From NCBI GenBank assembly GCA_009869945.1, contig WIXG01000322.1, positions 24,930 to 88,929 on the forward strand: a stretch of 64,000 bases of DNA. Direction: 5' to 3'. The position numbers and the translations under genes were made by a program. Source of the stretch: Mesaphorura yosii. Lineage: Eukaryota > Arthropoda > Collembola > Poduromorpha > Tullbergiidae. Positions within the stretch are counted from its first letter, which is position 1. Each line of letters starts with the position of its first letter. Shown here in pieces: positions 23,901 to 64,000 of this stretch. The notes below the pieces were generated by a model that was given only the letters and a program-made list of their open reading frames with translations, was not told the DNA's origin and searched no databases.

Positions 23901-26900
23901 TTCGCGCGAGACGCGTGAAAGTAAATTCAAAAGATTTCGTATCGTGTGACAAACTTGTTAACATCTGCATATTACATCTGAACGAGGTTGGCTCTTGGCC
24001 CCGCGTTCAAAGTTGTATTAAAAGCCTGTTATTCAATTTTGCGACAACGCGCCGTTGTCGCTTTGTCTCCTTAACATGGCAGGGAAAGCTTGTCCCACAG
24101 GCGAATGAAAAAAAATTCAATTGACATTTTAACATTTTTCAAACATTCAAATTTCAACTTGAGTGAGTGAATTTGAGCTGCTCCTTCAGCATTATACAGT
24201 TAGTGTGCACACCTGCCTGCCCTGCGATGTCATGTCTTGTGTCTCCAGACAATAAGAAACAACCTCTGGTTCACTTTCAAGCCTTCTTTCTAGAAACTCT
24301 AAACAGAACTCTCAGAGGCGGAAGTTGTGAAAACGTGAAGAACGCAAGGGCTGAACGCGCGACTGAATAGGAACTGAAACTTCCATCTTGAGATTCCCGT
24401 GGGACATTTCTTGTTCGCTCTGGTCTGAACAACAATAAAATTTTAAAGCGTGGTGACACAGGCACCAAGTTTTAAGTTTGTCATGTAGTACTAATGCAAG
24501 AAGCGGTTCGCCTAAAGTACATTTCAATGTACGCTGATTTTCTGTCAAAACTAATACTTGAATTGACTGCTTTTCCACATTCTTTTGGCTCCTGTTGCTT
24601 ATTTCTTTTCAGAATGATACATAAAAATAGCGTTATCGCTATATTTTTTCCATGAAGAATTCGAATTTAATATCACTCACTTAATGATAATGGGATACCT
24701 TCAAGAGGCAATTCCATATTGTCTTCTTCTTCGTTCAGGGCTTTCCATAAACAAATGTGACACATAACAAAATTCTCTGAAGTTTACTTATCTTCCTTCA
24801 TTCGTTAACAGCGTCCTGAAGCATCACAATACATTGTGCATCACATATTTTCCATTTAATTGCCAGGCTTCATACTTACAATCAATCCAACATCCAAACT
24901 GCTGCATCAACCAGAGTGTAACATTCTATCGGAATTGTAGCCTATATACTTTTGGTAGGTACTCCTGGAATGCAGTCATTTCGATTCTGTAATTATGAGT
25001 CAAGTTGACATTTGACAAGCTTACATAATTCTCGTCCGTCGTTCTCATACCGTGCAGGAAAAAGTTGGCTTACGAATTATGTTTTTATATCCATGTAACG
25101 AACGGGAATTTGTCTCGTAATGAGTTTTTATGATTGGAAAACTCAAGCTGGGCCAAAGTCCATTCGCAGATTTGAATGACTAAATCTGATGTTATGTGAA
25201 GTGAACATCAACTGTTCAGCCACAAACGCGACAACGCTCACGAGAACTGACGGAAACTCGACGTCTACGATTGCGATTACTAGCTTGGGCAGACGGAGTC
25301 CAGTAAATATATCTCTAAGTATACAGGCACAAGGGTCCAGTGATCTTAGCACCATCGTCGCATTCACAAGTCACAACCATGTATTGCGTAGCATGAATTT
25401 CGCTTGCCTTATACCCCAGAGATCAAAAGCAAAAAGCTTATTTGGGCTATGAGCTCGTAAATTGTGAAAATATTAATCTCATTCTTCAACATAACTGCTA
25501 GGCAGCCAGGTTAGAACCCTAGAATCGCTCAATAAAGGAGAAATGGCGAAACAGTGATCGCATCACCGAACAAGATTTGTTTTGGCTGATATGATGGATT
25601 CATTTTTTCCTTCTTGCTCACGAATGTGGATGGTCGACGAGGACCAATGAAGAAATCCATCAAATCAGTAGCGCAGCAAAAGCAAATTTCGCACGTGTCA
25701 GCAGGTCCTGAATTATTTCGCAGTGGGGTTCCAATTCTGCGGTTGGAGCCCAAACGGAATCCAATATTCTAGATTTCGGCATCGACAACAAGCATTCAAG
25801 TATATTCTACTATCATTATTTGCCTGCACCATGGGCCATGACAATAATAAATTATGCTGACTCGGTAATTTACAAAATCGTAATGAGAGTAAGCGTTGAA
25901 CTAACTTATGAAGACAGAAATTATGCTGTCAACAGCAGACCGGCCTTCCATTTCCATTCCCCCAAATCGCTGAACCTTGTGTATACTACGTCATTTCCTC
26001 AGAATTTTAACGCCTTCTTGTTGGCGCGTCACTTCGGTTCATTAACATTTTATTATCGCATAGTTCAATGCTCGCCCTCGAATCCTTCACATCCGCATTT
26101 CCACATTTCGTAAGGACTAAAATGAGAAGACAATAGACAGTCATAAAATATTCTCACCTAATCTCTTTACAAGTTTGTAAACACTTCAAAGTGGATATTG
26201 GCAAAAATAGCAATTCACGCAGCGTTCTTGCCACTTTTCATGATAGCCAGCTTTTAACTTTTGTGTGGGTTTGCAATGAGAAGTGCTTAAAGTTAAAACC
26301 TAATAATTTATTCAAATCTTATTCGCTGCTTTGTAACTGGAAGCTAAAAACGATCGCACACTGCTTTCACAAGAAGATAACTACTAAGCGTAGGCTAATC
26401 CGTAATAATAAGTATGACATTCTGCAAGGACAAGGACACTAATACCCTTTTTGTTTCGCAAAATTAAAGCCATGCCGAACTTATAATCCTCGGCCATTAC
26501 CAACTTTGAGATATAAAAGTCGCCAACGGTGAATGGTGTACTTAAATACACGTGGCGAGCATGCATGCATGGCGCCTAAAAGACAGACACAAATTGGTCC
26601 GAACTTTGGAAGGTGTAATTTGGAAGAAGTGTTTCGCTAACGAGAGTGAAATTGTTAGCCTTGTTCTAAAGCCAAAATGAGACGTTGTTACTTCGCAGTA
26701 TGAAGTGTAATTTGATGATGGCGCGTGTGGCACTCGAAGAAATTGCAATCTCTTCGGATTCTTCAAAGTAATCTTCTCAAATGACCGTTATTAATCCATT
26801 TCGAAAATGAGATGTTACCGTATAAATCAAAAGCCAAATTTTGACTTACTGGATAAATGTAATCACGCCAACTCGTGCAACGTCCAGCTCAATCCTCTTC

Positions 26901-27136
26901 CAAGATGTCCTTATTAAATTCTTCTGCTCTTCAGTGAGGTACTCGATCTTTTCTCCGTACAGAAGAATGCGAGCAGAGCTAATCGTAGAATGCTTTCTCG
27001 TAACAGCGGAACTGGCACTGCTTTGGGTTTCTGCGGGCGCTGACACCTCTTCAATTTGCTCAATTCCACCACCTCCACTTCCACCAACAGCACCATGACT
27101 AGCACCTCCTTCTCCTTTCCCAGTTGTGTTTCCCAT
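14903..27136 (-). CDS. Globin X-like globin with potential N-myristoylation site
   Basis: Four exons on the minus strand, 27136-26850, 15436-15332, 15256-15136 and 15061-14903, give 223 residues. The globin fold starts at about residue 67 (LTEEQKNLIRTSW). Phe111 (in VFMPF) fits CD1, His128 (QLRAHALRVM) fits distal E7 and His160 (LLDLGKNHF) fits proximal F8, so a haem-binding globin is expected. The protein begins MGNTTGK, a good N-myristoylation context, followed by a roughly 60-residue Gly/Ser-rich extension. Acylated N-termini are known in globin X and related invertebrate globins, suggesting a membrane-bound redox or signalling role rather than oxygen transport. Splice positions map to B12.2 and G7.0, the two ancestral globin introns, plus one in helix E (E10.2). 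Met27136 was chosen over an upstream in-frame Met at 27211 because it creates the MG start. 5' UTR exons were not located. Confidence 0.92.
18030..18448 (+). CDS. COA5: Cytochrome c oxidase assembly factor 5 (COA5/PET191)
   Basis: Small mitochondrial intermembrane-space protein needed for assembly of respiratory complex IV. Three exons, 18030-18122, 18205-18306 and 18407-18448, all phase 0, encode 78 residues; human COA5 has 74. The Cys pattern is typical: CGVIRHELRECLLNSKC in exon 1, then PKECLRSK, TECKPLQVAFFECKRS and the invariant-looking tail LLDNRVRFRGRKG. The segment from TEC to FEC is a CX9C pair, and the cysteines of exon 1 supply the partners for a helical hairpin held by disulfides. 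Proteins of this type are normally imported through the Mia40 relay without a cleavable presequence, and none is seen here. The gene lies in the antisense direction inside the globin intron. A pyrimidine tract and AG just before the first exon suggest an upstream untranslated exon. Confidence 0.95.
18638..18643 (+). promoter_or_regulatory. Candidate polyadenylation signal of COA5
   Basis: AATAAA lies 190 bases after the COA5 stop codon and is the first canonical hexamer on this strand. A transcript ending here would lie entirely inside the globin intron. Confidence 0.55.
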
Positions 27137-29423
27137 CCCGGTAAGTTGGTGGCACCTTCGTCGATTTGAAGCAAGATTTCTGAAATTCCAGAAAGTACAA
27201 GAAAAATGCATTTTGATAAGAACTCAAAACTTTCGGCATGAGGAATGCGCTGCCAATCCAGGGCAATACAATGCTCAGGACCAAGACCAAAACGAACACA
27301 ATATTAAATCTCATTTGTCTCATTTTGACAGGCGTTGTGCATGGAATGAAAACAGAGCAAACGAAAGTAGACAGGAGCCGTTCAGGCGGCTCGCAGGTCT
27401 AGGCTAGCCTAGCCTAGGAGCTTCGGAGAGGTTCTCCAACCGAGTCGAGAAGAATGCCGCTTGGGAATGGAGTAGTATGTCCAACTCACTCCTCGTTAAC
27501 AGCGTCAATTTCAATTGACTCTCTACTCTCTGATCTATATGCTATACCCAACTCCAACATGGAGTCGGACATTTGCTTGATCAGTTTGCATCACTGGCCG
27601 CCTTGGACATGGTAGAGAGGACCCGGACCAGAACCGGCCTTGGAGCTACGAGTAATAAGTGCTGGTAACCTTTGGCCATTTAGAACCGATTAACGCCGAA
27701 ACTTCGGCGTAACACATCAGCAAACAAAACGACAATGCTATCGAAGGATACAAGTTTCTGTTCGCCCAGATTAATCCGATTGCACCCACATGTTCGCGAG
27801 TTGTTCATGGTAGCCTCAACATTAAGAAACTGTTTGCGGAAATGACCAACCACAAGATGTTTCCCTAATGGTATTTTCAGGATAAAAATGCATTAAAAAG
27901 AATCCGGCACTTGTCTTTATAGTAGCCATCAGCCCGCATCTGTGTCAGTAGCCTGACCTGGGATGGCATCTGTTCATTCTGTTGCAGAGATGCAGAAACT
28001 GCACAAAAGTAAGAAGCTTACAGGAATGAAAGTTATAACAGCTCCGTTCACACCAGTGAACATCATCATAGTGAACAGTCCCGGTCTTCGCGATGAAGCA
28101 GAGCAGAACACAAGAGGAAAAGTAAATACAAAGGAGCAACATTTATTACATAGTTGCATAGCGTATTTACTTTCTTCAAGATTTTCACTTTCTTGTGTCT
28201 CGAAGATCAAACTGAGCTCTAATGAAGAGCGAGCTGAGAATGACGAAAACAATTCTATTTTCCATCCAATCGTGTCAGCTGAATCTTCTGGTGTAATGAA
28301 AGAAGTTCATTTCCAATCTCTTTGTTTGTCGCTACTCTTATTATTGCCGTTGTCATTCTGCCCTTCGAGTGCATTAATGAACAAGAATGACGCAGATCGG
28401 GTTGCTGTGTGAACTTCGACTGAACCCCGATACAAAATACAAAGGCGAGGCGTCAGTTGTCAAATCTATAATGTAATTTTGGATCAACACAAACATAAAC
28501 ATAGCCACGTGCGCTGTGAAAACAGGGCCCAAATTCCTGATCGTGATGAATAGTGAATATCAGGAGTTTCGAGTTTGTGTTCCTGGAAATTTGAGTCATA
28601 GTTCACGGAGGTTGCCTCTATTACAATGCAGCTGACGTCTATGTCATACCATGGGTCACGAACTACAGACATTAAAAGACAATAGACTGTGACTTCACAG
28701 TCACGATTGCTTCATTTGATGAAGGTATGGTACGATACCCATCAACACAATAACAATGGTAAAATCATGAACGATAAAGCCCTCTGGAAATATTTAGAAC
28801 AGATCAGATCAGATCGATAATGCCAGAGCCTTTCTTAGATTCCATCTACAGTCTCGTAGCGAGTTGATTATGCTTTCCTGTATCCTGAGTCGAGATCTGA
28901 GCTTAATTTATCTAGGCTTGAGTAATGCTTGTTGGTATTAAGGAAAGACAACCAACCGTCACCTGCTATTGACGTCGACTTCATCTCTGGTCTTTCGGAA
29001 ATGCATCGTTTTATTTGTGTAGGCACGCAACTTATCATTGACAGAGTAATAAAGTGGTCCAAGTCCAAGAAGCAAAATCATCAGTTTTATCATCTTCGTT
29101 ATCAGCGGCAAGCAGCAGTGGCTGATGCAAATGTAAATTCATGACAGTCAGGACAAACTTATGGATCTTTCCACAGCAATTTCATTAACTTTTGGGTGTA
29201 TTCTTAGTAAAGTAGAAGCAGTCGCGAAAGCACAGCAGCTCAAACATTTTACGAGCATGATGAAAATGTAATAATGATGAAGATGAAGAGTGCACGTGGA
29301 GCGACAGCATGCTCTGCTCCTCTGCTGGTACTCTGCCTTCTGATGAGATTGTAATTAATAATGGTAAACCATGAGCAAAATGAGCACATCTTACACAAAT
29401 AGAATTGAACAAAATTGGTTTTG

Positions 29424-38705: not shown

Positions 38706-41235
38706 ATGTCTGAAGTGCAGAAGGTAGAAAATCAATTCGCCCCAGGAATTCAAGATTTTGTGCTGGGCAAGCCAATCAGTCGAGGAAGTTTTGGGTAAGT
38801 CGGGTGCACTGCCGACATAATGTCAGTTCACTTGTTAACTGACTTCCGCAATGGTCTTGTCTCATGTCTGGTGCACTTCTTCGTAATTTCACATAATTCA
38901 CATTCCAGGAAAGTTTACTTGGGCTACAAGAAAGATGTGCCATCAAAACTATACGCCATCAAAGTGATGAAGAAGAGTGAGTTGATCAATAAAAACATGG
39001 CCAATAACGTGTTGAAAGAACGGAAAGCACTTTGCATCTCCGCAATGGAGTAAGTCAATTAAGTTTAAAGATTACAGTGTGTCTGCAAAGCACTAATAAG
39101 TGCTGTTTTCTTTTCTTTTTGAAGCCCTTTCTGCGTCCGCCTTTACTACTCACTGCAAACACAAACTAAAGTATTTCTGGTCATGGACTGGATGGTTGGA
39201 GGAGATTTGATGTCTTTATTGGGAGAAATGGCCTTTTTCCCGATACCAATGGCGGCGTTTTACATAGCCGAAGTTGCCAATGCGTTGAACTTTTTGCACA
39301 GAAATGGAATTACTCATAGGGATATTAAGCCAGATAATTTGTTACTCGATGCCAGAGGTCACGTAAAGGTAAATAGCTCTTGCAAAGGAGGCTGCAATAA
39401 TTAAGGTTTACACACGGTGGTATTAAGCAATAACTTTTAATTCGGTGTTATCTTATAGCTGACAGATTTCGGACTCAGTCGGGTGAATGTGCTGAAAGGT
39501 ACGGTTGAATTCCTTGACACGCTTTCATATAATTTTTCATTATTATGTCCGTCTATTTCCATATTTCCAATTAATTTTTAACAGATCTGAGCCCATCACG
39601 GATGAACATATTTACACCTGGACAAAAAGCATCACTTAGGACTAAATTCTCATTTGTAAGTAAAAAATAAATTCTTCTTACTGCTTCTGTTCCTCCTTTA
39701 ATATTTTGATAATGTTCAAAATCTTAGGAACCTACCATCAAGGTTCGGCAGACCCTGAAGGCTTCTGGGTTGAGTTCTCACTACAACGCTTCAACTCCGC
39801 TCAGTTCCATACTTGGGGATGTGACTTTCAGGCGAAGGAAGAAGTTGAGGAGGCGAGAAAAGACTCCACGACCTAAGTCCGCGACTCCCAAGTGAGTAAA
39901 CTACTGAAAGTTAACTTAGTATTGTGGCCGAAACCAAAGCTCACTCCCGTATTGGGAACTTGTCTTCAGGGAACGGGCCGGCGAAAGTTTCCTTAGTGAA
40001 TGGAGCATCATCGCTACCCCTGATGCCAACGAAAAACCTCGAAAGAGAAGAGCACTAATGATGAAGGACGAAGAGTCATTTGTTAATGTTTCATTCAATA
40101 ATGAGCCACCGTTAACCATCGTCACAAGTTCTCCAACGGAGAACTGCGAGAGAAATCTTCATATTCCGGAGATATCTCCAGTTGCTGAAGCGGAAAGCGG
40201 GAGTCGTGTCATTCACACACCTGGGGACACAAATGCTTCATTCGCTAATTCTATGAGTCCTTCATGTCCAGACCACCGCACCCCAGAAATGCTAGAAAAT
40301 GCCGACTCGATGACTGAAGGGAGCTTCGACAGTAGCAATCTCTCTGGTCCTTGGGTTGAAAGTCCCGAAGTTGCTCGCAGAGAACCCGCTTTGCATCATG
40401 AAGAATCTTTTCATCATCACCAACAATTGCATAAAAGCAGGGGGCATATAAGACCTCGGCTACAAGAATGGAACTCGTTATCTTTCTCATCTCAGAGACT
40501 GAAACCCGAGAAAAGAAAACGTTGGACGTCAAGTGAAAAGCCGGGAGCTTCGTTTGGAATCACAGGTCTCACCCTAGAAACGGCTGGGAGTAGTCGTCCC
40601 GGAACTGCAACCGGCCTTAAGACGAATGCACCCATGATGACTCCTTCCTCTGACCAGCAAATAGTGGGTAGTCCAGGTACACTCCGTCTCCGCTTTGTTT
40701 TCTACATTTTATAGTTTATGTTGTGCAGTGCTTGGCAAGTTCACTAGAACGGTAATAATTGAATGCATATGTTACAGATTACATTGCACCGGAGTTAATT
40801 TTGCAAGCAGGACATGGTAATTACGACAAAAAGCTTCATGAAATATATGATCTAACAGCATCCTGCCTTTTTTCAATGTGTCAAGGACATTCTGTGGATT
40901 TTTGGTCACTTGGGGTTTGCTTGTACGAGTTTACAATTGGTGTTCGACCCTTTTCTGACGAATCACCGGAAAAAATATTTCATAATATTTTGAACCGCAA
41001 CCTTGCGTTTCCTGACGACTTCGATGTGGCAGCTCAAATGTGTATCGAAGCCCTGCTGACACTGAAGCCTTCGCAACGACCGGACTTACTACGGCTCAAA
41101 AGCGACGAATTCCGCGAACTCTTCGGAGATCTTCCCTGGGAGAACTTATGTGCTATGGAAGCTCCATTTGTTCCAGCACCAACGTCACCGACCGATACTG
41201 GATACTTTGCGCGTAAACAGAAATACTTTAAATAA
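38706..41235 (+). CDS. gwl: Greatwall/MASTL mitotic kinase
   Basis: AGC-family Ser/Thr kinase that phosphorylates ENSA/ARPP19, which then inhibits PP2A-B55 to allow mitotic entry. Nine exons: 38706-38794, 38909-39049, 39125-39368, 39459-39498, 39585-39655, 39728-39891, 39970-40676, 40778-40816 and 40886-41235; 614 residues. Visible features: glycine loop GKPISRGSFGKV (21-32), Lys48 (YAIK), Glu67 of helix C, catalytic HRDIKPDN with Asp143, and DFG at 161-163. An insertion of about 325 residues separates DFG from the APE motif (489-491); this split kinase domain is the hallmark of Greatwall. The insert is Ser/Pro-rich and keeps FTPGQ near its start, matching the TPGQ activation segment of the human protein. 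The C-terminal lobe (DFWSLGVCLYEF) and AGC tail (DTGYFARKQ) follow. At 614 residues it is shorter than human (about 880) because the insert is compact. Confidence 0.95.
40817..40885 (+). other. In-frame 69-base intron in the Greatwall kinase domain
   Basis: The frame stays open across this interval, but the 23 residues it would add between QAGHG and HSVDFW are absent from remembered Greatwall sequences. The interval has a GTAATT donor, a CTAAC branch-like motif, a CTGCCTTTTTTC tract and a CAAG acceptor. Removal restores exact length agreement with the human AHGPAVDWW region. I therefore call it an intron; retention would extend the protein without a stop. Confidence 0.85.
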
Positions 41236-43627: not shown

Positions 43628-46600
43628 ATGGTAAGTTTTATAAACACAGACGCAGACAAAACACAAGGACGGTGCTGATGTTAGACTTTTGTGTGCCAAG
43701 GACCCAGCACCATCTGACTCGCCATCAACTGCGAATCCCGGGTTTAACATCAGAATGACCAATGACGAAATGCTCGCTAATGTATTGGATTGGAGCCTGG
43801 GCTGTGATACGGCTGTGTTAAATCATCTGAAAGATTACTCCGAAGTAAGTGTATAATTTACCAAAGTAGGCCTAATGACTAAAATGACTATGTAAGTCTG
43901 CTGTCATTGTCATCGTTTTTAGAACATGCTAAGACGAGCTGGTACGATCAAAGAGGATTGCAATTCATTTGCTCAAGAAGTGGACATGTTGCAAACGCGC
44001 GTTCAAAGTGTGACGAATCAATTTCTAAACCTGGCTAATGATCAGTTCGTGGAAAATTGTGTCGAAGAATTTGAGGAACGAGATGCCATTAAGCAAGCAT
44101 CACCATCGCCCTTAGTCCATCAAGTGAGAACAAAAGCGGAGAAGGAAGCAGAACTTATCAAGAAGATGAAGGAGTCAATTCAAGTGGGAATTAAATCTAA
44201 TTCACTATGTGATCAGTTAAGGTATTGCATTCAATTATTCAATCCATGCCCCAATTATAACGGCCAGTTTGCCACAAATGTGGGATATGATCTGACTGTC
44301 TTCTAGCTCTGTACCAAAAGTCAAGACTGCTCATATTATTGGAACGTCTAAGTTTTTCGGCAGTAGATTCTGTGGCTTGCTAGAAGAAGATCGCCTTCGT
44401 CCTAATTTGCACATGAATACTGTGATGCCTGAAACGCCTTTGAGTCAGCACGACCCTCACCAGCCAGTAGGCCTGTCGGAGTCAATATCTATTCCGAAGG
44501 CACCCAGCTCAACGGATTCTGAGAACCTGTTTCATTCGAGGGACACAGCTCAATCTCAGGTTAATATTCTGAATGTTTAAACCATTGATCAAGCCTAAAG
44601 TTGTTTCTGCTGCTTGAACTTCAGCTTTCCAAGCCAGACAGCTCTCTGAGCTCAGAAGAGAATTTTCTTGGCGCAAATCGAACTCCTTTCACATCTTCTA
44701 GCAACAGTGTGGGTACGAATCAAAGCCTTGAAACGGATCTCAGGAAACATGGTGATTATCCCACGGTAATTGCTTAGAAATGTGGTTGTCAGTTTGTTCA
44801 CAAGTTCTTTCATCAAATATTTCATGCATTTATTTAGGCGAGGCCACCAATTTCTATAATAGACGACCTAAATAATGTTCTAAAAGCAAGAGTTCCTCCT
44901 CCGACAACGGCTGACAGCGACTCAGAGGAAGATTTTAAACCGAGAAGTGGCACTGGTAATGACAATCATTTTACGTCATTTGAGAACCATCGAGTGTATT
45001 ATTTCAAATCAAATGCGCTTTAGGAAGGGACTTGTTCGCTGATGACGACGACGAAGATATATTCACTGCGCATGCTAAAGCATCAGCTCATTCCATCCGA
45101 TCTCCAGATATTAACGATCGCAGCTCGTCAATCCCTTCAAAGATTGCAAATATTGCTCCGGTTTCAAAAAACTCATCTGTGAATCAAATTAACTCAATTG
45201 CTGACCTGATCAAAGCACAGCGACAAATGCCAGATCAAACCAAAACTCAACCAGCTAAACAATCTGTGTTTCGAGACTCAGACTCTGATGGCGAAGGCGA
45301 TTTATTTTCGTCCTCAAGCTCTGCTCGCAGTTCAAACAGACTCCCTACGAAAACAAAAAGTTACCAAAACTTATTTGCCGATGACCAGGATTCCTTGTCG
45401 CACCAAAAGCCGCAACCGCACGCATCCGTTCCGCAAACGACCGTCATTCCTGAGACACCGCAATTACAACCTACTCCTGTACTACCAAATATTCGACCCG
45501 ACGTTCCAAAATTGGAACAAAAGCAACAGCGATCCATTTTTGATGAATCGGACTCGGATGATGATTTGTTCTCGGCCTCTAGTTCGAAGCGAGGCGGTGG
45601 TACCTCCACAACAAGTACGGACACTGAGCAGCCCAGTGTTAGGGCGAAGGCGCTTACAAACAAATTTCCTGGCTCAACCAATCTCTTCGAGAATGTTGCC
45701 CCAGCGAAATCTAACATTGTAATTGAACAAGCAAAAGTTGTGCCCACGAGTACAGTGTCGAAGCCTATCTTTACGCCTTCCGTGGACGCCGACACCGAGT
45801 CTACCATGAGTGAGACTACAACGACAGCCACAGAACCTGCAACGGAAGAATTAATGGAGCCAGCTGAAGCGGAAAGGCATACAACGTCAACGTCTCGCAA
45901 ATCTATAAGTCAGAAACTGGAAAACATATTCAAAGTTACAGGGCCGCCATTACCAGGTATTGCCCCGAAACGTAATTTCTCAAAACCTGATGTTTCAAAC
46001 GAGGCGAATGATTCACAAAACACACCAGAGGAGGATCAGGAGAATACGAAGACCGTCTTTCCAGGCGATGATATTCGCAATAAAGTGGATTCTATTGCTG
46101 AGAATGCCGTCTCAACACCTAGTGTTCATCCGATCACCGACGTGAAGCAAACATCTCGGAGTCTTACTTTCGATAAGGACTTGTTCAACGAATTCAACCC
46201 GGGTGCTGGTGGAAAGAATCAAAGCGCAGTTGGTGACACTACCACCAGTCCACCACCACGTCGGCAAATTAGCCAGAGTTCCTTTGCTTCAAGCGACGAA
46301 GATGGTTTAACCCAAGCGTTTTCAAGCTTCTCAGTTGATAATCTAATCAATTGCGAACATCCAGTAACATTTGACGAGCCACCGAATCATAACTTGCTCA
46401 TCAGTGCTACGAAGGTATGAAGAAGTCTTAATCAGTACACCAAACCTAATGTCAACAGCTTAAATTTCTGAATTGCTTGATGTATAGAATCGAGTCAAGA
46501 TTACACATAAGAGGCGACGACCAATACAAAAGCCTGTGGCAAAGGCCGCAAAGGATGAAATCACGCACATGGCTCCAGAATTAACAAGCGGTAAGTTTAA

Positions 46601-47643
46601 CTAGCAGCCAGAGATGAAATAACTTACTAATTCCCACTTTGTTGTATCTTTAAGACAACGCACCAAAGCTTATTCATCAAGACAATGCGACTATCCCAAC
46701 AAATCCTGACACCGAAGAAAGTAAACCTGTATGTAGCCATATTGTACCAGAAGTCATTTCCAATATTGTAAGCGACTCCACCGTGTCCAAGCTGAAACCA
46801 AGTGTAGCGATTTCAAACCCATCAAGTAGCTCGCCAAATGTGCTTCCAAGCCTATCAAGCGAACCGAAATCCGAGAAGGATGAGAAGATACGTGTTGAAG
46901 TTCCGCATGTTGTGGAACCAAACTCAAGCCGAAGTTCGACCTATGGTCCCTCGGGCTCAGCTCCCGCTGCACGAAAGGAGATGAGTAAGGAAAGGTTGCA
47001 GGTATCTGCGACTATCAGTCGGTCTACCTACCTCATCAGTGATAGCAAACCTGATATGAAAGTATCTGACCAACATCAGAAACCGACGAAGCAATCGATT
47101 TTTGATGATTCAGATTCGGATAGTGACATCTTTTCCCCGGCTAAAACAAAAACTATTACTTCAGTACCGTCCAACAAAGCAGTAAACGGGGTGTTCAGTA
47201 CTGCCACCGCAGGCTATGTGCCTGTGCCTGCTTCACAAGCATTTGATTCAACTGAACCGACACCAACGAAGGTACTGCAGAAATCTTCTAAAGTGAAACA
47301 ACAGTCTGTTTTTGCTGAGCCCGACTCAGATTCCGGAGATGATATTTTCGTTTCAAAAAGGAAAAATACACGGATGAGTAGAGACTCAACAAATAAAACT
47401 GCCGACTTGTTCGCTGGTCACTCTGGCGTAGAGGAGAGCAATGACACTTTCGGTTCCTCTGATTCACGAGTAAATTCCAGAGCAAATCCGGTGAACGCAA
47501 TCACTGAAAAATCTACCACGAAGCTGCAACCACAAAAAAGTCAGTCATCAAAATCGAGAACCCACCAAAAGTCAATCTTCGATGATTCTGATTCTGACAG
47601 TGATATATTTTCTAGTAAATCTACTAAAGTTAAATTCACTTGA
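43628..47643 (+). CDS. WASHC2: WASHC2/FAM21, WASH complex subunit
   Basis: Scaffold subunit of the endosomal WASH complex, which drives Arp2/3 actin assembly; its tail binds retromer VPS35 and capping protein. Coding exons: 43628-43630 (ATG only, tentative), 43701-43844, 43923-44221, 44307-44559, 44625-44765, 44838-44955, 45024-46414, 46488-46590 and 46655-47643; 1146 residues. If the ATG-only exon is wrong, Met43755 gives 1127. The head domain (DWSLGCDTAVLNHLKDYS, then NQFLNLANDQFVEN) matches the conserved N-terminus that binds the rest of the WASH complex. The long acidic disordered tail carries repeated LFa motifs, for example LFADDDDEDIF, SVFRDSDSDGEGDLF, SIFDESDSDDDLF, SVFAEPDSDSGDDIF and two copies of SIFDDSDSDSDIF. 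A basic segment (VKITHKRRRPIQ) corresponds to the RVKxxxKRRP element of the family. Confidence 0.93.
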
Positions 47644-53142: not shown

Positions 53143-56100
53143 ATGGTAGTAAAGGACGAGGACAAGATCAAAGCGGGCCATACTGCGGTGGAGTCAACGG
53201 AAACGAAACATGGAGAAAAATCACAGTGCATCTGTGAAATCTGCACGTGTGGGTGAGTGAGCTTTTGACGAGAAACAATTCACGTCTCACGTAGAATAGA
53301 AATCCAGTACGTAGTATGTCAAATTCATTCGTGATCCCGATCACGGGCGAGGGGCAGCACGAAATTGAACGGTAGGTTGCGAATTCGTTACACGAATATG
53401 CTAATTTAAATGAACTGAGAAATGGCGTATGGAATCACATTAACATGGATTTGGTAATCAAGTTGCACCTTCATTAATGCGGCACCGCGTCGCCACAGCT
53501 GGGTTGGAGCTTTATAGCCTGGATGTAACGTAACCCAATATTGCAAATCCATTCGATCAGGTGACATCATAATCCGTAAAATCGTAAAGTCTTCAGTGGC
53601 GATTAATTACCTCGTTAATTACACTCTTATAAATTCATGCTTAACTGACTTCGTCGAAAGATGGACTTGACTAAAACCAGTTTGCAGATTGCGATTAAAT
53701 GTGATGTTCTGATTTCAAGTCGTGATTGCGTGGTGTTATCTTTGACATCTTTTCGAGTGGAATTTTATGTTTCAAGTTTCCGCACTATATGACAACAGAA
53801 AAGTTGACATGAGACACGAACTTCAGTATCAGGAGTCTGCTTTTGTTGGCAATTGGACTCCAATCTTTCGAATACATTTAATCTTTAGAGTGACGAGTCT
53901 CAAAGCAAGGCCAAGACCTTGCAATTTGCGTGATGAGTCTTCGTAGACTGAGACAGGTGTCACATGCGATAATCTGTGCACAGATTTTATCAACGCAGTT
54001 TATTTTTGCCATGCGCTGCAAGACACATGAGACAAACAGAATCATTCACGGTAATGCTTTTTCTCTTGGAACTAGCAGACAGTGGCAAAATGAAATTTCA
54101 TTAAGTACGAGCACAAGTTCGTGCATTTCATATGGCTCTGGCTGAATACGTGTTCGACAAATTACAACCCTGTACCTGCAAAATGAATGATGATCTCATC
54201 TGCTGTTCTGAGGGTGAAGTGCAACAATATCTCATTTCTCATCACATTGTTGCCCCAAAGCCTATATTTATGTTATGAGTAATTTTTCATCTCAAGCGCC
54301 ACAACAATCCTGAGAGGATGCCGAACAGCTGAAGCACAAAAAATAGCGCACGAATTTTATTACGTAGCCTTGTAAATTTTTATTTACTTTTTGCATATGC
54401 ATAAGATGTTACTACAAGTGGGGCCAATTTTAAAGGGTAAAAGTATACATGTTCACTCGCTCATGGTCGGACCTTGCAGCCAGACTTAGACCCAGACACA
54501 TCGCACGATCGCACATCCTTGAAATTACATCATAAGTCATAATTGCATTGAAAACACAGACGTAAGCACTGCACATGCTTGACTTTCAGTTTCAAAATTA
54601 GCATCGGTTTCAAGAATGCGGTGGCCGTATTGAGTACACAGCGCAACAGACGAATTCTGTATTGACTTACTTCCACATTATGTCATCTCTTAAAAGAAGT
54701 CCTTGTATAAGAACAAATACGAATACTAAACATAATTTGCACCACCGCGTACGTGTTAAATGCACGAACAATGAAAACGATTTATCACAGAGTCAAATCG
54801 GTTAAACTTTGGCAACGCCATGCAACCAATATGATGCAATATAGAATGGTTGATTCAATTTGTGCAAATGATATAACAAGTGAGACTAGTCTCATTGTTC
54901 ACACGTTACGTTAGTTTAGCCAGGTTTGAAACCAGGTTTAGCTGCAACTGCTGCAGCGACAGTGACGAATGACGAAACAATAATGCTCATCTGAAGAAGC
55001 GTTTGTTGACATTTCATTCAAGTGGAACTAATCAATTTGAAATGTTCGCACGTTTATGCAAAATGCAATTCATGATAAAACCACAAAGAAACGATAAACG
55101 TTCTTCACCTTGCCACCTTGTATGCTCAATCAGTAATAAGGCAATTAAGCAATTTATTTTGCCTGCCTTTACACATGATTTTTGTTGTTAGTATATTTGT
55201 TGACTAGCCGTCTCATTGTCTGCTCTTAGCAACTCATGGTCAGGCCAGGTGACCGAGACAGTATTTTAGATCCGCAATGAAGAAATTACCCAAGTGATGA
55301 ACTTTGCCTGTGGAACGAGTCGAGTTACGAATTGACCTTTGCGATATCTTAATTATCATTGTCACTACTTTACTTCCAAATAAGGGCATAACTATGACTT
55401 GTGGGCTTCATTTAACCGGTTAGAGTTTTCCAGGAGTCAGTTTAACTAATCTGCAGAGGACGCAGCGTGCGGTATTACTGCTTTCAGATTTTACGATTCA
55501 ACTTGAGTGCACGCTGACCATGTTTGGTCATTTTCTGGTGTACCGTACCAGCCTACGCATCCGAGTACAGCGGATAACACTAAACCTAGCAGGTGGCTGG
55601 TGGCTGCTTCAGCATGTGCAAGGGTGACGGTAGCATACTAATATTTGAAGCTTTAATCTAACTTGCAGCAACGTGCCTCAGTTGCTATTAGGAATTACGA
55701 GTCCGGCAGTGCACAGGATGACAAAAATGACAATTGTAATAACCAGATCTGAGAGATCGGCGCACGTACACATACGCATCTGTGTTGTTCCATTGTTTAG
55801 TTTGGTTCAGATTCATTTGAACTTACAAAGGTACAGTTCAGTTCTTGCTTCAGTCAAGTCCGTTCAAATATTCATTCAAGCAACAACATACACAGGATGT
55901 ACGAAAAAGGTTTGAAGCTTTTGCAAATACTTGCGAGCATTCTGCTGTAGTTAACTTTAAATGCCTCACATTTAATGCTTCCATTACAAACTCATCAAGT
56001 CCAGCGGATAGCGGAAATAATTAACCAGAGTTGACAGGTGTTCGTGATACTTGTGAATTTCAAATTCAAAGTATTGAAAGAATGAACTAGGGCAAACTCA

Positions 56101-59100
56101 ATATCTAAAAGTCTCCAGCCACAAACGATGAAAGATCCTCCAATACCTCCTGTAATCACCATAATTAATCCAACCGTCAGCCAGGACGAGAATTGAACTG
56201 AAATGATTTCTGATTGAACACATTAGGAGCTAACAAAGCGCACCGTTTCGAGTGCCATCTCACAAATCAGATATGTGCAAATAATGCTGAAAGAAGTCAA
56301 CGGTCATTGCAACAAGCTGCAGCATCCGCACCCATTTCATTTTTAACCCATGTTAACTGCACCAAATCATTGTAATTATTTCCTTTAACTATTAATATGG
56401 TCATTCGTGACGTGATTCTCTGCCCTCTTATTGCCCATAAAAGACACCCAACAATGTAGGGCCAAAACAAGAGCGATTGTCCATTTATGAATTATGGTTT
56501 GCTGAATTTACATCTGTTTTGCATTCGCCTTCTTCGCGTAGAGAGTAGACAGTTGTTAGTGCATTGACACGCTGTTGTTTCTTCTGACGTCCATTTTTTG
56601 TGTGTATTGCAGGCGTCACAAGTGCCCACACACTCAATCTAGAATGGTGGATCACGTTTCTTCGGAGCTGCGGCAGTTCAGTGCATCTGAACAACACAGT
56701 TCCACAACGGAGAGTCAAGATCAATTCGTATCATATCAACTGGAACACGTAAGACACTGATTCTAAAACTGCGAGTGCTCTGATGTGGGTACTGGTTAGT
56801 GACTGACAAATGACTTCCATTATTTATGGTTTACAGACCGACCGAGCAAAAATGAAGCGAGGTCGAGACATAACACCGGAAGGTGAGATCGCGCTGGGTT
56901 CTTCGATCAGGGAGGAGCTCCACGGAAAGGAGTTTGAACAGCAAAAGAAGTACGTGCCAAAAGACCTTAGACTTGATAACTAAACGCATGAAGGTAGCCA
57001 AGTAGCCATCCAACAAATATTTATGCTCGAATTGATTGTTCCAGATTTAAGCTTGAAGACGCCAGTGGTAGTGAAACTTTTCACTCCACAAGCATGACCC
57101 GCGAAAGAACAAGTTCCGGACACCCTGGGCGTGATGATTGGAGCGTTCATTTGCATGAAAGCCAGATTGCATTGGATTCTGGCAGTCAGAAACAATCGGC
57201 ATCAACAGAGGAATACTCCTCGTCAAAATCTTACTCGACCCAGCAAGAGCAATCTTCATCATTTCAGACACAAATAGAGGCCAATAGTTCTAGCACCTCT
57301 CAATTTGAGACGCAACAAGAATCTCTTATGGCCGCGTCCGATCTGATCATGAAGGGTAGCAGTACTAGTAAGGAAAGCAGATCACTGTTGTCGGATGAGA
57401 CAACCAAAACCATTTTGCATGAAGCGTCAAACCTGCCTGCGCTCAGTACTCAATCTTCAACGTCCACAAAGAATAGGAAGCAACTTCGCGGAGGCAAATT
57501 GGTCGACATTCCGTTCGAAACCGAAGAAATGACGACCAGCAGTCATATGTCAACCAGTAAATCCATGTCTTCCAGAAGTGGACATGCCTTGGCTCAAGAG
57601 TACGACTCGGCAACGGGCCAATGGAGGGACGTGTCGCGTTCTGAGTATTCAACTTTCGCAGAAAAGTCTGACGGGCAACCCTTGAAGATTAGTTCTTCCA
57701 CGTTGAGCGGAACTACCACAACAAGGAAGGTTTTGAGAGGTGGCAAGTTGGTTGATGATTATGAGCTTCGTAGTGATTTCGGTGCCACTGCTGCCCAATC
57801 AGAATTCTCATCGCTGCTAAAGGAGTCTTCCAAGTACGGCCAAGATATTGAGAAGAGCGAGAAAATCATCCGGGAATCAAGTAACCTCCTGAAAGAAATT
57901 GGCGAGCAGAAAGAAACTTTGTCTCACCTGAGCACAGAATACTCCTCAAAATCTGATGTCAAACAGTCCGATTTGTTAACCAAAGAGAGCAAGTCGAGCG
58001 GTTTCGAGACCAAATCGAGTTCCAAAACGGAAGAGAAAAATTTCACATCTTCTGCAACTTCTTCGTCGAATGTGGAAACAAAATCAAGCGAGTTAATTTC
58101 TTATCGCCCAGGAACTCCCGTAGACACAAGAGACCAGAGTCAAATTCGTGGTTCCAAAATTGAAACCAGATCCGGCGGCATGTATCATGATTTTGGAAAT
58201 GTGCAAGGGCTGACGGTAACAACCCAGACCAAGTCAAGCATGGAAAAAACTCAGGACCAAAAGAAAGCACAAGCAGATTTGGAGGAAATCATTCAAACCC
58301 AGAAAGTTTATGGCGTTGACATCGAATCGTCCTTGTCAGGTTCCAAAGTTAAAAGTGTTCACGAACGAGAGATTTCGAGTGGAATTGTGAGCTTCGGCGC
58401 TGGTGGAATTGAAACAACTGAAAAGGTTCTGCGAACGATCACAGAAATTAAGTCTGCGCAAGTCGCTGGAAGCACTTCTAATGACAATATCGAGATTGAT
58501 GAAAAGATTCACACATCGACGACGTCAAGCGACCATCAAACTTTTCGGTACGACGAATTGCTCACGTCCCAAGCAGAAAGAAATCTCAGGGAATTGCGCG
58601 ATAAGCATGACATTACAAAGACATCGGATACGAAGGCCATCAAGGATTACAGTTCTAAGTCAGCCCGAGAGTCCAAGGAGTCTGGCGTCATGAAGACAGG
58701 GCAGGTGCTGGTTGAAGAGGTGATGGATGTCAAGACCAGTTTCGCAAGCAGAGACTCCAAGAAACAAATATCAACCGCAGTAGAAGACGAGAACTACAAG
58801 ACGACCACTGTGCTGGAGAAATTGGAAAACCAAAATTACTTCGTTGGGCCACGTGAGCCTATTGCGAAAAGACAAGACCAGCTGAAACTGGAAGGAGCCG
58901 TGGATTATGAGAGCACCAATAGGAAAGACTTCTACGAAAAGCAACATGACAAGGTCAAGGCTGTACGAAAAAACACATACACTAAGCAAGAAGGAGAAAT
59001 GTACCTTCAGACCACTTCCAGAGACCAGTTTACTGGTGTCAAGGGAGAACGCGTTGACATCACACGACGCGGTGACAATTTGCATATGACGGGTCCCTTT

Positions 59101-62100
59101 TATGGAAAGGAACCAGAACTTGCTCCGAAAATTGACAGAGTTACACCATACAAAACAAGGGACAATCTTCACCCTGAAGGGCCCTTTTATGGTAGAGAGA
59201 GGCAGCCAGCTCCAAAAATTGAGAGGACGAAACCAATTACTCGAGAAGATAATTTGAAGCCATTGGAAGGAGCTTTTCCAACCAGGAGAATTGAGGACGC
59301 ACCGAAACTAGAGCGAGCTGTTGTAAAGATTCCGAAGGAGAACTTGAAGCCAGAGGGACAGCATTACTATCCGGCCAAACCAACGGCACCCGCACATGGC
59401 GAAAGACATCCTGTGGTTCGGCACCCCGATAACATCGCATTCAAAGGCGATTTTCCTCAACGCCATGTAGAACCAATTCCAAAACTTGAAAGGACTAAGC
59501 CAATCATGCATGATGACAATTTGAAGCAAACCGGACAACATTACTATCCTGATAAAGCAGCTGCGCCCAAAATGGGTGACAAATACCCAACAAAGAGACC
59601 CGTGGACAATTTGATTCCAGAAGGAGAGTTTTCAAGAAGACCAAAAGAAGAACTTCCAAAAATGGGCGAAAGGTTTCCCCTTTCTGAATTCATCTCTGAA
59701 TTTCAGTCAAAATATGTTTGAAGTCTTTAATTGTTGATTTAGGTATCCAACTAAAAAACCGACCGACAACTTGGTTCCGGAAGGAGAATTCGCGAAACGT
59801 CCGATTGCACTGCCGTACAAACCTGGCGAAAAATACCCTATTGCCATTCCAAAAGATAATCTAGCTCCAGAAGGACAATTTTACGCTCCTCCTGAGAGGA
59901 AGGCGCCAGGAGCTGGTGAAAGATATCCGACAAAAAAGCCGGTGGATAACTTGGTTCCAGAAGGTGAATTTGCACGTAGGCAAAAAGAGCCTGTACCCAA
60001 AGGCGAAAGGTAAGGCGTGAAAGAATTAGGCCATATTAAAATATCACAAGCATCTTCAATAAATAATGTGCCTTTTCAGATATCCAGCGAAGCGGCCGAC
60101 TGATAATCTTGCGCCAGAAGGAGAATTTACGGGTAGACCAAAACAAGCAGCACCTAAAATGGGTGACCGGTATCCGATGAAAAGACCAATAGACAATTTG
60201 ATGATGGAAGGAGAGTTCACGAAGAGGCAAGTGGTTGAAGTGCAAAAGGTTGGAGAGAAATATCCGACCGTGATACCACGAGATAATTTAGTACCCGAGG
60301 GTCAATTTTACGCGCCACCACAAAAGCAAGCACCTGGTGCTCCAGACAGGTACCTAATCAAGAAGCCTGTAGACAATCTTGTCCCTAAAGGAGAGTTTGC
60401 GCGTCGACCAAGACAGGAAGTGCCCAAGATGGGGGAAAGGTAACAGGAAACACTCTAAACTCTTAGTACTTTTAATCTTTGGTTTTGGAGTTACGTTTAG
60501 CCCACTCTCTCCCAGGTACCCAGCTAAGAAGCCACCTGATAACTTGGTGTCCGAAGGCGAATTCGCGAAGAGGCCAACAGAAGAACCTTACAGAAAAGGA
60601 GAAAAGTATCCTACAGTCCGACCTGTTGACAATTTGGTACCGGAGGGACAATTTTATGTTCCACCGGAAAAGGTAGCTCCAGGAGCACCGGAGAGGTATC
60701 CGACGAAAAAGCCCGTGGACAATTTGGCACCAGAAGGTGAATTTTCTCGTAGGCCGCAAGAGGAGGCTCCGAAGGTTGGAGAAAGGTACGTTAGCGATAA
60801 TTTGCCAATAGTGAATTAACGTCCACGGAATGAAATTGATACAATTTTATCATTTCAGATACCCCGTGAAAAAACCAGCAGACAACCTTGTTCCAGAAGG
60901 AGAGTTTGCCAAAAGACCAACCGAAGAACCATATAAACCTGGAGAGAAGTATCCAGCAATGAAGCCAAAAGATAATCTGATTTCAGAAGGAGAGTTCTAC
61001 ACTCGTCAGGAGAAAGTTTGGCCTGGGGCCGGAGAGAGATACCCAGCCAAGAAGCCTGTGGACAATTTAATCCCAGAAGGTGAATTTGCGAAAAGGCCAC
61101 CTGAGCAACCATACAGAATGGGAGAAAAGTACCCAACTATGCGACCAGTTGACAATCTGGCTCCGGAGGGGAAATTTTACGTCCCACCAGCCCAACAGGC
61201 TCCTGGAGCACCAGAACGATACCCAGCAAAGAAACCAGCCGATAATTTAGTTCCAGAGGGCGAATTTACCGGAAGACCAATAGAAGCAGCACCAAAAATG
61301 GGAGAAAGGTTTGAAGACCCCAGCAATTCTATTTGTGCTTGCATTCATGGCCTAGTTTTTAATGATTCAGATACCCAGTAAAGAAGCCGAAGGATAATTT
61401 GGTTCCTGAGGGCGAGTTCACAAAGCGTCCTGTGGACGAACCATATAAAGTTGGAGAGAAATATCCAACTATGCGACCAGTTGACAATCTAGTCCCTGAA
61501 GGTGAATTTGCGCGTAGGCCCGTGGAGGAAGCGCCAAAAATGGGCGAGAGGTACTTCACCAACTTATCCTGATTGGGAATTGTAAGATTAAGCAGATTCA
61601 TTTTGCATTCAGGTATCCTGTGAAGAAGCCAACAGATAACCTCGTTCCGGAAGGAGAATTCACTAAACGGGCAAGAGAGCCGGCTCCAACTGTGGGAGAA
61701 AGGTGGGAAGAGCATAAAGCTCCAGTGAAAGAACACATGACGCCCGTAACCTACAACTAACACCCGTTTCGATTTGAATCACTGCAGATATGCCCTAAAG
61801 AAGCCAGTTGACAATCTGGTATCGGAAGGAGAGTTTACAAAAAGAGTCGTTGAAGAAGTTCACATGGTTGGCGAGAAGTATCCAATCGTGCGGCCTGTTG
61901 ATAATCTTGTACCTGAAGGACAATTTCATGTACCTCCACAAAAGGAAGCACCAGGAGCACCAGAAAGGTACCCGACTAAGAAACCAGTTGACAACTTGGT
62001 ACTAGAGGGTGAATTTGTGAAAAGGCCAAAGGAGGAAGCTCCAAAAATGGGAGAAAGGTTTGTCTATTTTTCGACTTTCTTTGTCCAATTAATTCATGAG

Positions 62101-64000
62101 CATGCGCCATCCAGGTATCCTGCGAAGAAGCCAGTAGATAATCTTGCCCCCGAAGGCGAATTCACGAAACGGAAAGTTGAAGAGGTGCACAAAGTTGGCG
62201 AGAAATATCCAACCGTCAAACCCGCCGATAACTTGGCACCTGAAGGACAGTTCTACGTGCCACCGCCTAAAGAGGCGCCAGGAGCAGCGGAGAGGTATCC
62301 GACGAAGAAGCCAGTGGACAACTTGGTGCCAGAAGGGGAATTTGTGAGGAGACCGAAGGAAGAGGCACCAGTCATGGGAGAAAGGTAGGCATGAGTTACG
62401 TTTAAAGACGCATTTTTTATACCGGCCAAGCCAGTATTCTTAACAAAACGATCTGACTAGGTACCCCGCAAAGAAGCCAAGTGACAACCTCATGCCGGAA
62501 GGCGAGTTTGCTCAAAGGCCCAAGCAGGAAATACCCAAAGGTGAGAGATATCCGGCAAAGAAGCCAACTGATAATCTGTTCCCCGAAGGTGAATTCACTC
62601 GGAGACCCAAAGAGCAGGCGCCAAAACCAGAGGAACGGTACGTTCACAGATCACAATTTAAGATTAGTTAAGACAAAGAATAGTGTAACAGTCAACTTTC
62701 TAAAATTAGGTATCCCACAAAGAAGCCAATTGATAACTTGGTTTCTGAGGGAGAATTCACGAAACGACAAGTAGATGAAACATACAAGGTTGGAGAGAGA
62801 TATCCAATGGCGAAGCCGAAAGATAACTTGTCTCCAGAAGGAAAATTTTACACTCCGCCACAAAAGGAAAGCCCTGGCGCACCTGAGAGATATCCAACGA
62901 AGAAACCGGTTGACAACTTGGTCCCAGAAGGTGAATTTGTGAAGAGGTCACGAGAAGACGCGCCCACATTAGGAGATAGGTAATTTCAGGGCTCGTAATC
63001 ATTGAGTATTGGATGCGTCTATAAAACTTGCCAAAAATTTGTAGATATCCCATGAAAAGACCAGTGGATAATTTAGTCCCAGAAGGAGATTTTGCTCAGC
63101 GACCGAGAGACGTGGTGCCAGTTGGCGAAAGGTAACGCTAATAATTTGAGCCACAATGACGGATTAACAATACCAATTTTATTGTCCGCTTTTTCGTAGA
63201 TATCCGACAAAACGGCCTATTGATCATCTTGTGATGGAAGGCGAATTCACAAAACGTGTTGTGGACGAAGGATACAAATTCGGTGAGAAATATCCAACCG
63301 TCAAACCAAAAGACAATTTAGCACCAGAGGGTCAGTTCTACGTACCGCCGCAACAAACAGCGCCCAAAATTGAGAGGACAAGGCCTATTACACACGAAGA
63401 CAATTTAAAGCCGATGGAAGGAGCTTTTACGACCAGAAAAATTGAGGACGCGCCAAAACTAGAGCGAGCAGTTGTAAAGATTCCGAAGGAGAACTTGAAG
63501 CCAGAGGGACAGCATTATTACCCTGAGAAACCATCAGCTCCTGTGCAAGGCGAACGGCAGCTTGTAGTCCGTCATCCTGATAATCTTGTTCCAGAAGGAG
63601 AATTTGCCAAACGACATGTTGACGACGGCCCGAAAATAGGAGAAAGGTAAATGAATTGTCCGTTCAGTTTAGTGTCAATGATTGGGAAATCCTCTGGTGT
63701 CTCAACCTTACTTGTACTCAGGTATCCAGTTAAAAAACCTAAGGATCATCTTCTTATGGAAGGCGAATTCACAAAACGCGTTGTGGAGGAAGTGCACAAA
63801 GTCGGTGAAAAATATCCAACAGTAAAGCCTAAAGATAACTTAGCTCCGGAAGGCCAGTTTCACGTACCTCCAAAACCCATTGCACCCAAAATTGAGAGGA
63901 CGAAACCAATTACTCGAGAAGATAATTTGAAGCCATTGGAAGGAGCTTTTCCAACCAGGAGAATTGAGGACGCACCGAAACTAGAGCGAGCTGTTGTGAA
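53143..64000 (+). CDS. Giant SAXO-like repeat protein (3'-partial, at least 17 exons)
   Basis: Exons: 53143-53252, 56613-56748, 56837-56949, 57045-59672, 59743-60009, 60080-60439, 60516-60785, 60859-61308, 61371-61550, 61613-61702, 61788-62057, 62115-62384, 62461-62637, 62710-62979, 63045-63131, 63200-63646 and 63722 to beyond 64000; about 2134 residues in the window, all phases consistent. Residues 29-43 (CICEICTCGRHKCPH) match the N-terminal signature of SAXO1/SAXO2 (FAM154), MAP6-related microtubule stabilisers. A Ser/Thr/Lys-rich region of about 700 residues follows, with LRGGKLVD twice. Then at least 45 modules of about 30 residues occur, each with a DNLxPEGxF core followed by a basic/Pro segment and GERYP or GEKYP. 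SAXO proteins also use tandem Mn-type microtubule-binding modules, so a microtubule or other cytoskeletal role is inferred. The repeat itself is not one I can name. Start chosen at ATG 53143 (CAAAATGG context). Confidence 0.85.
53253..56612 (+). other. 3.4 kb first intron of the SAXO-like gene
   Basis: Donor GTGAGT at 53253, acceptor TGTATTGCAG ending at 56612, phase 2. The intron interrupts the glycine codon of the CGRH signature. No coding exon with matching phase was found inside; open frames at 53930-54145 and 55673-55915 show no family features. Confidence 0.75.
59059..64000 (+). repeat. Tandem array of about 30-residue (90-base) DNLxPEGxF modules
   Basis: At least 45 modules: 7 at the end of the 57045-59672 exon, then 3, 4, 3, 5, 2, 1, 3, 3, 2, 3, 1 and 5 in successive exons, and 3 or more in the cut last exon. 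Three sub-types can be told apart by the segment after the core: a basic type (EGEFTKRxVEEVHKVGEKYP), a Pro type (EGQFYVPPxxxAPGAPERYP) and a mixed type (EGEFxRRPxEEAPKMGERYP). They often follow one another in this order, making a 90-residue super-unit. Earlier modules (59059-59560) and those at 63354-63600 are of a more divergent type (PKIERTKPITREDNLKP, KENLKPEGQHYYP). The array continues past the window. Confidence 0.9.
59215..59324 (+). repeat. 110-base block identical to 63888-63997
   Basis: Every base from 59215 to 59324 is the same as 63888 to 63997, including third codon positions, although neighbouring modules differ widely. A third, diverged copy lies at about 63360-63470. It is followed by a 47-base stretch (63471-63517) identical to 59320-59366. 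This indicates recent segmental duplication or gene conversion within the array. Confidence 0.9.

Follow-up and report, generated by a model that had tools for sequence, protein, structure and literature searches.

A giant SAXO-derived repeat gene of the collembolan Mesaphorura yosii, with an old, selected array of 30-residue modules and a putative microtubule role

The window analysed here is a stretch of 64,000 nucleotides from the collembolan Mesaphorura yosii, namely positions 24930-88929 of contig C322 (WIXG01000322.1), which terminates at the window end; the genome assembly examined comprises 93.0 Mb in 1127 contigs. The last part of the window, positions 53143-64000, holds 17 exons and 16 GT-AG introns that read in frame without a stop over 2134 codons and belong to a giant gene lying on contigs C322 and C1080. 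Its predicted product, protein A, would combine an N-terminal SAXO cysteine signature, Ser/Thr-rich arms on both sides of a long module array, and a C-terminal Cys-Pro, and a paralog, protein B, is encoded on contig C796. The final 99 bases of C322 are identical to one end of C1080, which extends the frame via two short introns to a stop, giving a full model of 2880 amino acids (aa) and 55 modules as counted with a loose anchor pattern. The overlap stops precisely at both contig ends, a pattern that an assembler may leave, and since a stretch 97% similar to it is present elsewhere in the same gene, the true number of modules may differ from 55. A reading made from the sequence alone had described a signature joined to a Ser/Thr-rich region and at least 45 modules in a protein of more than 2100 residues, and the model agrees with and extends that description. 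The features of the gene in the window are as follows.

53143..53252, plus strand: exon 1, with the start codon and the first signature half CICEICTCG (Cys 29, 31, 34, 36); donor GT at 53253; based on an exon, phase and motif common to paralog B and on Pfam SAXO1-2
56613..56748, plus strand: exon 2, with the second signature half RHKCPH, then SSELRQF (aa 53-59, identical in B)
56837..56949, plus strand: exon 3, in frame between GT-AG introns, 61% identity with paralog B
57045..59672, plus strand: exon 4, with a Ser/Thr-rich arm, the Mn region on the N side and array modules 1-7; matched by the paralog
58912..58932, plus strand: weak Mn-like core STNRKDF (aa 743-749), of minimal Mn syntax, identical in B
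58996..59040, plus strand: Mn motif EMYLQTTSRDQFTGV (aa 771-785) directly before the array, SAXO Mn matrix score 12.5 bits
59050..64000, plus strand: array of 30-residue modules in exons 4-17, 45 of them in the window by the loose anchor pattern, continuing on C1080
60517..60783, plus strand: example of a three-module unit on a single exon of 270 nucleotides (nt), from the alignment of units
63902..64000, plus strand: 99-base overlap with C1080 (its minus strand), by identity; the model of A runs on to the stop

The array of A spans about 1,640 residues, and its modules follow the consensus R-YPxKKPx-DNLxPEGxF-x(13), 30 residues in length. The spacing is regular, with 43 of the 54 intervals measuring 30 residues, ten measuring 29 and one measuring 33. 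The stricter pattern DN[LI]xxxGxF is matched 37 times in the window part of A and not once in any of 1000 protein shuffles. All 13 repeat exons downstream of exon 4 are entered in phase 2 and carry one to five modules each; 12 of them are approximately multiples of 90 nt, with exons 7, 11, 12 and 14 each having 270 nt, and the thirteenth is cut by the window end. The 13 introns of the repeat region are 57-85 bases long. By composition the array contains 14% Pro, 12% Glu, 11% Lys, 8% Arg and 8% Val, and 35% of its residues are charged.

The N-terminal signature is that of the SAXO/FAM154 proteins, as had been proposed from the sequence alone. The first 120 residues of A score 28.0 bits against Pfam PF05217 (SAXO1-2), over a cut-off of 26.5, and the N-terminus matches the SAXO1 chain 8ou0_D of the PDB (E=2.9e-6). 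Two STOP-family axonemal proteins (E 0.0042 and 0.014) and SPM1 (E=0.13) are matched more weakly in the PDB. The published SAXO motif 1 is fitted at 11 of 15 positions by A and at 10 of 15 by B, the best of 200 shuffles of A reaching 7. The six cysteines among the 2880 residues of A are divided between the signature, with five, and the Cys-Pro at 2850-2851, with one; B has 13 cysteines and retains both features. The division of the signature over 53143-53252 and 56613-56748, also claimed beforehand, is flanked by GT-AG splice sites. The join of exons 1 and 2 is a genomic model, accepted because an intron at the identical place and in the same phase restores the signature in both paralogs.

Protein B (C796:13218-19200) is complete, with 1785 or 1788 aa depending on the choice of one acceptor, and has 23 modules. 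In place of the RYPxKKPxDNL type, many of these belong to the ERxKPITxxDNLKP and PKENLKPEGQHYYP types. B and A agree in the first four exons and their phases, in the signature, in the two arms and in a Cys-Pro terminus. Between A and B, exons 1-2 show a nonsynonymous divergence (dN) of 0.175 and a synonymous divergence (dS) of 0.978 by the NG86 method, and exon 3 a dN/dS of 0.30. The ratios for the Ser/Thr-rich arm, the distal array and the C-terminal arm are 0.18, 0.10 and 0.20 by NG86, and 0.32, 0.09 and 0.36 by YN00; dS at the A/B split ranges from 0.84 to 1.83 (NG86). As judged by these ratios the pair evolves under purifying selection, and because B has the same arrangement, the signature exons are assigned to the repeat gene, as the sequence-only reading had assumed.

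Of 78 modules compared, 71 retain the D of the core, 73 the N, 70 the L, 67 the G and 51 the F, with varied synonymous codons. In pairwise comparison of six three-module units, dN lies between 0.12 and 0.26; synonymous sites are saturated in 13 of 15 pairs, leaving dS undefined, and the other two pairs have dS values of 1.9 and 2.5. Since the core has been kept despite saturated synonymous change, the array can be regarded as old and its DNLxPEGxF core as being under selection, and the three-module units seem to predate the A/B split or to be of the same age. The 13 introns of the repeat region have no sequence in common except for one 12-base match. Drifting or recently amplified junk repeats were considered and ruled out by the saturated dS with low dN, by this near-absence of common sequence among the introns, and by the purifying selection between A and B.

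Mn motifs were sought with a matrix built from 17 of 21 Mn modules taken from SAXO-type exons of this genome, on contig C695, and from PDB 8ou0_D, after two incomplete and two off-register modules had been dropped. A contains only two clear Mn motifs, KFSDATTAKENYRTY at 2295 (18.1 bits) and EMYLQTTSRDQFTGV at 771, the former in the fifth module from the array end and the latter just ahead of the first module at 797; the last array module carries a broken core, TTSRSEQ. The same two motifs occur in B, with 17.8 and 17.3 bits. Among 1000 shuffles of the whole of A, two reach 18.0 bits and 25 reach 12.5, and among 1000 shuffles of its array alone these numbers are one and 16; for B, none of 1000 whole-protein shuffles reaches 17.8 or 17.3, and one array shuffle reaches each value.

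The relation of the modules to those of SAXO was examined with profiles of eight end modules (four per paralog), 68 interior modules remaining from 78 once the ten most distal had been set aside, and 18 SAXO modules. The end and SAXO profiles match with a score of 19.4, equalled by none of 300 column permutations, a result that is partly circular, since a Mn-like core, judged visually, was the criterion for choosing the end modules. The interior and end profiles match with a score of 25.2, again equalled by none of 300, and this comparison is less circular, as the rows were not picked for DNL. For the interior and SAXO profiles the score is 8.9 and 16 of 300 permutations equal it, which is not significant. 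The relation to SAXO/MAP6 Mn modules on which the sequence-only reading depended thus survives in a weaker form in the end modules, where the Mn core, a TTxxxx[FY]-like half, comes right behind a DNLxxEGx[FM]-like half, and fails for the interior. Given the end-SAXO and interior-end matches, the end modules can be read as a bridge between the DNL repeat type and the SAXO Mn type. The interior modules may have lost the helix half while the linker half stayed, although this direction of change is a conjecture and the reverse history is possible. A description of the array as 45 Mn modules was ruled out, since the interior neither has the Mn core nor resembles SAXO modules significantly by profile.

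Mn-motif proteins, which occur from protists to mammals, stabilise microtubules from the lumen, and the reading that we tentatively prefer, at somewhat less than an even chance, is that the gene encodes a SAXO-derived giant running as a filament along a microtubule, with Mn helices flanking a lattice-matched array. It builds on the SAXO signature, the two Mn motifs conserved in the paralog, the regular period, and the age and selection of the array, which are established at the level of sequence; from these we infer tubulin binding, a lumenal site, one module per dimer and the cell type. Most likely the filament would lie inside a stable axonemal microtubule, in its lumen, with the Mn helices as anchors at the same intradimer site that SPM1 and SAXO occupy. 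With the DNLxPEGxF linker half but no helix half, the interior modules may make a weaker periodic contact with tubulin; at 0.27 nm per residue, the 30 residues of a module would reach over about one dimer of 8 nm, and 55 modules would cover about 440 nm. In the available text on SPM1, its Mn helix is placed at the lumenal intradimer interface, with an 8-nm periodicity and one repeat per dimer (PMC8144581). The genome yields tektin matches in 19 exon-level rows (two below the cut-off) and radial-spoke matches in 8 rows, so that its owner probably builds motile axonemes. The ruler or filament-lining role suggested by the sequence-only reading would follow in its strongest form if the gene defined a new class of microtubule ruler, in which 55 lattice-matched modules, flanked by Mn motifs and touching tubulin through a DNLxPEGxF contact unlike the Mn helix, line a protofilament for about 440 nm and the module number of each paralog sets its length; we consider this quite unlikely. 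The paralog pair, with a Mn helix that is clear only at the two sides of a long selected array, would offer a test of whether the linker between Mn helices binds the lattice itself and of whether repeat number (55 versus 23 modules) can set length along a microtubule.

Besides the non-significant interior profile and the eye-picking of the end modules, a number of observations weigh against the preferred reading. Shuffled A at times matches the real Mn scores, with maxima of 19.5 bits in 500 shuffles and 20.2 in 1000, and among 51 D[NH][LI] anchors in the array a high Mn score is seen only at 2288, the next being 1.7 and the median -12.7 bits. For SAXO, a spacing of about 8 nm is quoted for every 40 residues, against 30 here (PMC13087473). 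In B, modules are of looser length (29-36 residues), the signature scores only 20.2 bits with Pfam SAXO1-2, under the 26.5 cut-off, and the isoelectric point is 7.10, compared with a basic 9.04 in A. The short stretches of Mn syntax outside the two clear motifs score poorly with the SAXO Mn matrix: -11.1 bits for SSELRQF after the signature, 2.1 in A and 3.9 in B for STNRKDF, and -0.1 for SSYRQEF, which lies at 2838-2844 of A just before the Cys-Pro (B keeps the CP without Mn syntax). The last 60 residues, with the Cys-Pro, gave no significant match when searched, and the C-terminal likeness of A to SAXO is, as far as the sequence goes, one of layout only. PDB searches with both array flanks and an array profile returned no match at E up to 10, NCBIfam gave none on the array stretches tried, and Pfam gave none over the cut-off on the verbatim exon 4 and a five-module exon. 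AlphaFold produced no confident structure, with predicted local distance difference test (pLDDT) values of 58 and 48 and predicted template modelling (pTM) scores of 0.12 and 0.11; models this poor are taken to prove nothing. The missing matrix support for the terminal Mn-syntax stretches weakens the idea of a protein lining the microtubule and raises two of its rivals, a tether and a chance combination of unrelated parts.

The tether is the rival that survives best, and we regard it as doubtful, if a serious contender. Here the flanking Mn motifs would grip several microtubules, or a single one at points far apart, and the array, rich in Pro, Glu, Lys and Val, would be a flexible and extensible PEVK-like linker without tubulin contact. 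The composition and charge of the array speak for it, as do the interior without a Mn helix or predicted order and the repeat exons of shared phase with one to five modules; such same-phase modular exons resemble the PEVK exons of titin. It also finds a parallel in the wide Mn gap of SAXO6, suggested in the available text to bridge several dimers (PMC13087473). A plain spacer, however, needs neither a DNL..G.F core that most of 78 modules retain although synonymous change is saturated, nor a fixed length, and 53 of the 54 intervals in A measure 29-30 residues. Strict spacing is likewise superfluous for a recruiting motif, and this, together with the lack of any known candidate partner, makes it unlikely that the protein is a scaffold in which DNLxPEGxF acts as a short linear motif for many copies of a non-tubulin partner and the SAXO parts only target it to microtubules; a short, motif-like conserved core with no predicted order around it fits this view, and the long Ser/Thr-rich arms could be phosphorylated. 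Chance capture of the Cys signature by an unrelated repeat gene, so that neither part implies microtubules, would accord with interior modules that alone do not match SAXO modules and with a Cys-Pro and terminal Mn-syntax stretches devoid of statistical support, but it is very improbable in view of two matrix-supported Mn motifs, present in A and B alike, on either side of the main array, and of an entire layout conserved in B.

Comparison with known systems places A near SAXO without making it a canonical member. Like SAXO1/SAXO2 (FAM154; PF05217), it has an N-terminal Cys signature, two Mn motifs and a Cys-Pro near the C-terminus, but the PDB chain of SAXO1 has 477 residues, whereas A has 2880, long Ser/Thr-rich arms and an array interior without the Mn helix. 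In the published SAXO layout, a Cys motif is combined with serially repeated Mn-like motifs, the last of which is accompanied by a Cys-Pro; mouse Saxo1 has 12 Mn-like motifs, and three SAXO proteins contain 11.6-20% Pro, more than the 8.7% of A overall (PMC3280300). A linear row of Mn-like motifs, one of the criteria for SAXO, is absent from A, and the gene is therefore filed, on its sequence, as a SAXO-derived variant and not as a canonical SAXO. SPM1 of Toxoplasma and its apicomplexan relatives share with A the Cys signature (a weak match) and tandem modules; 5 to 13 Mn-motif repeats are described for them in the accessible text (PMC8144581), compared with 55 repeats in A, of which almost none has the Mn core. 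In SAXO6 (MDM1), which is predicted to lack structure, Mn motifs likewise lie far apart, with a gap of about 32 nm (PMC13087473), the two clear ones of A being about 1,500 residues apart, and the part of the SAXO6 text available mentions no periodic array. A further counterpart is found outside microtubule proteins. The PEVK region of titin has modules of about 30 residues rich in Pro, Glu, Lys and Val, encoded by same-phase exons, as in A. A differs from titin in its conserved DNLxPEGxF core and SAXO-type N-terminus, and Pfam matched no Ig, FN3 or kinase domain in aa 1-120, aa 121-995, a stretch of roughly 300 aa where the array begins, an exon of five modules and approximately aa 2090-2880.

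Two adjoining sets of ordinary SAXO-type exons with TTYxxxY modules are present in the same genome (C695:8987-12951), with no Cys signature in the 20 kb scanned there. The genome also yields 66 matches to PF00379, a cuticle family that marks arthropods. A composite query of the array gave only a sub-threshold Pfam match to RsgI_N (18.7 bits, cut-off 25). Relatives of a five-module exon were sought in viral contigs, with 2 pattern matches, and in prokaryote genomes, with 36, none of which was confirmed by tblastn. Six DNLxxEG heptapeptides were printed in no open-licence paper found, and among the open-licence papers listed that link arthropods or giant repeats to SAXO, the Mn motif or microtubule inner proteins, judged by title and start of abstract, none described such a protein. 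Drosophila CG45076, considered as a candidate ortholog, was dropped as having no sequence support; orthologs may well exist in other arthropods as unnamed predictions.

In the Ser/Thr-rich arm of A (aa 131-735; 18% Ser, 11% Thr), the phrase LRGGKLVD occurs twice (57484-57507 and 57733-57756), and an altered form is kept in B; exon 4, which encodes this arm, has no match in Pfam or NCBIfam. Elsewhere in the window, an open reading frame (ORF) at 26849-27223 on the minus strand has no Pfam match and contains a stretch that we presume to recall the start of a globin, and acidic DSDSD..F repeats at 43923-47640, in three ORFs without a Pfam match, may be akin to WASH complex subunit 2 / FAM21. A partial protein kinase domain lies at 40759-41232 (Pfam Pkinase, 35 bits), which, with an ORF at 39920, may resemble Greatwall/MASTL, and a ubiquitin carboxyl-terminal hydrolase domain is encoded at 9453-10094 (Pfam UCH, 128 bits).

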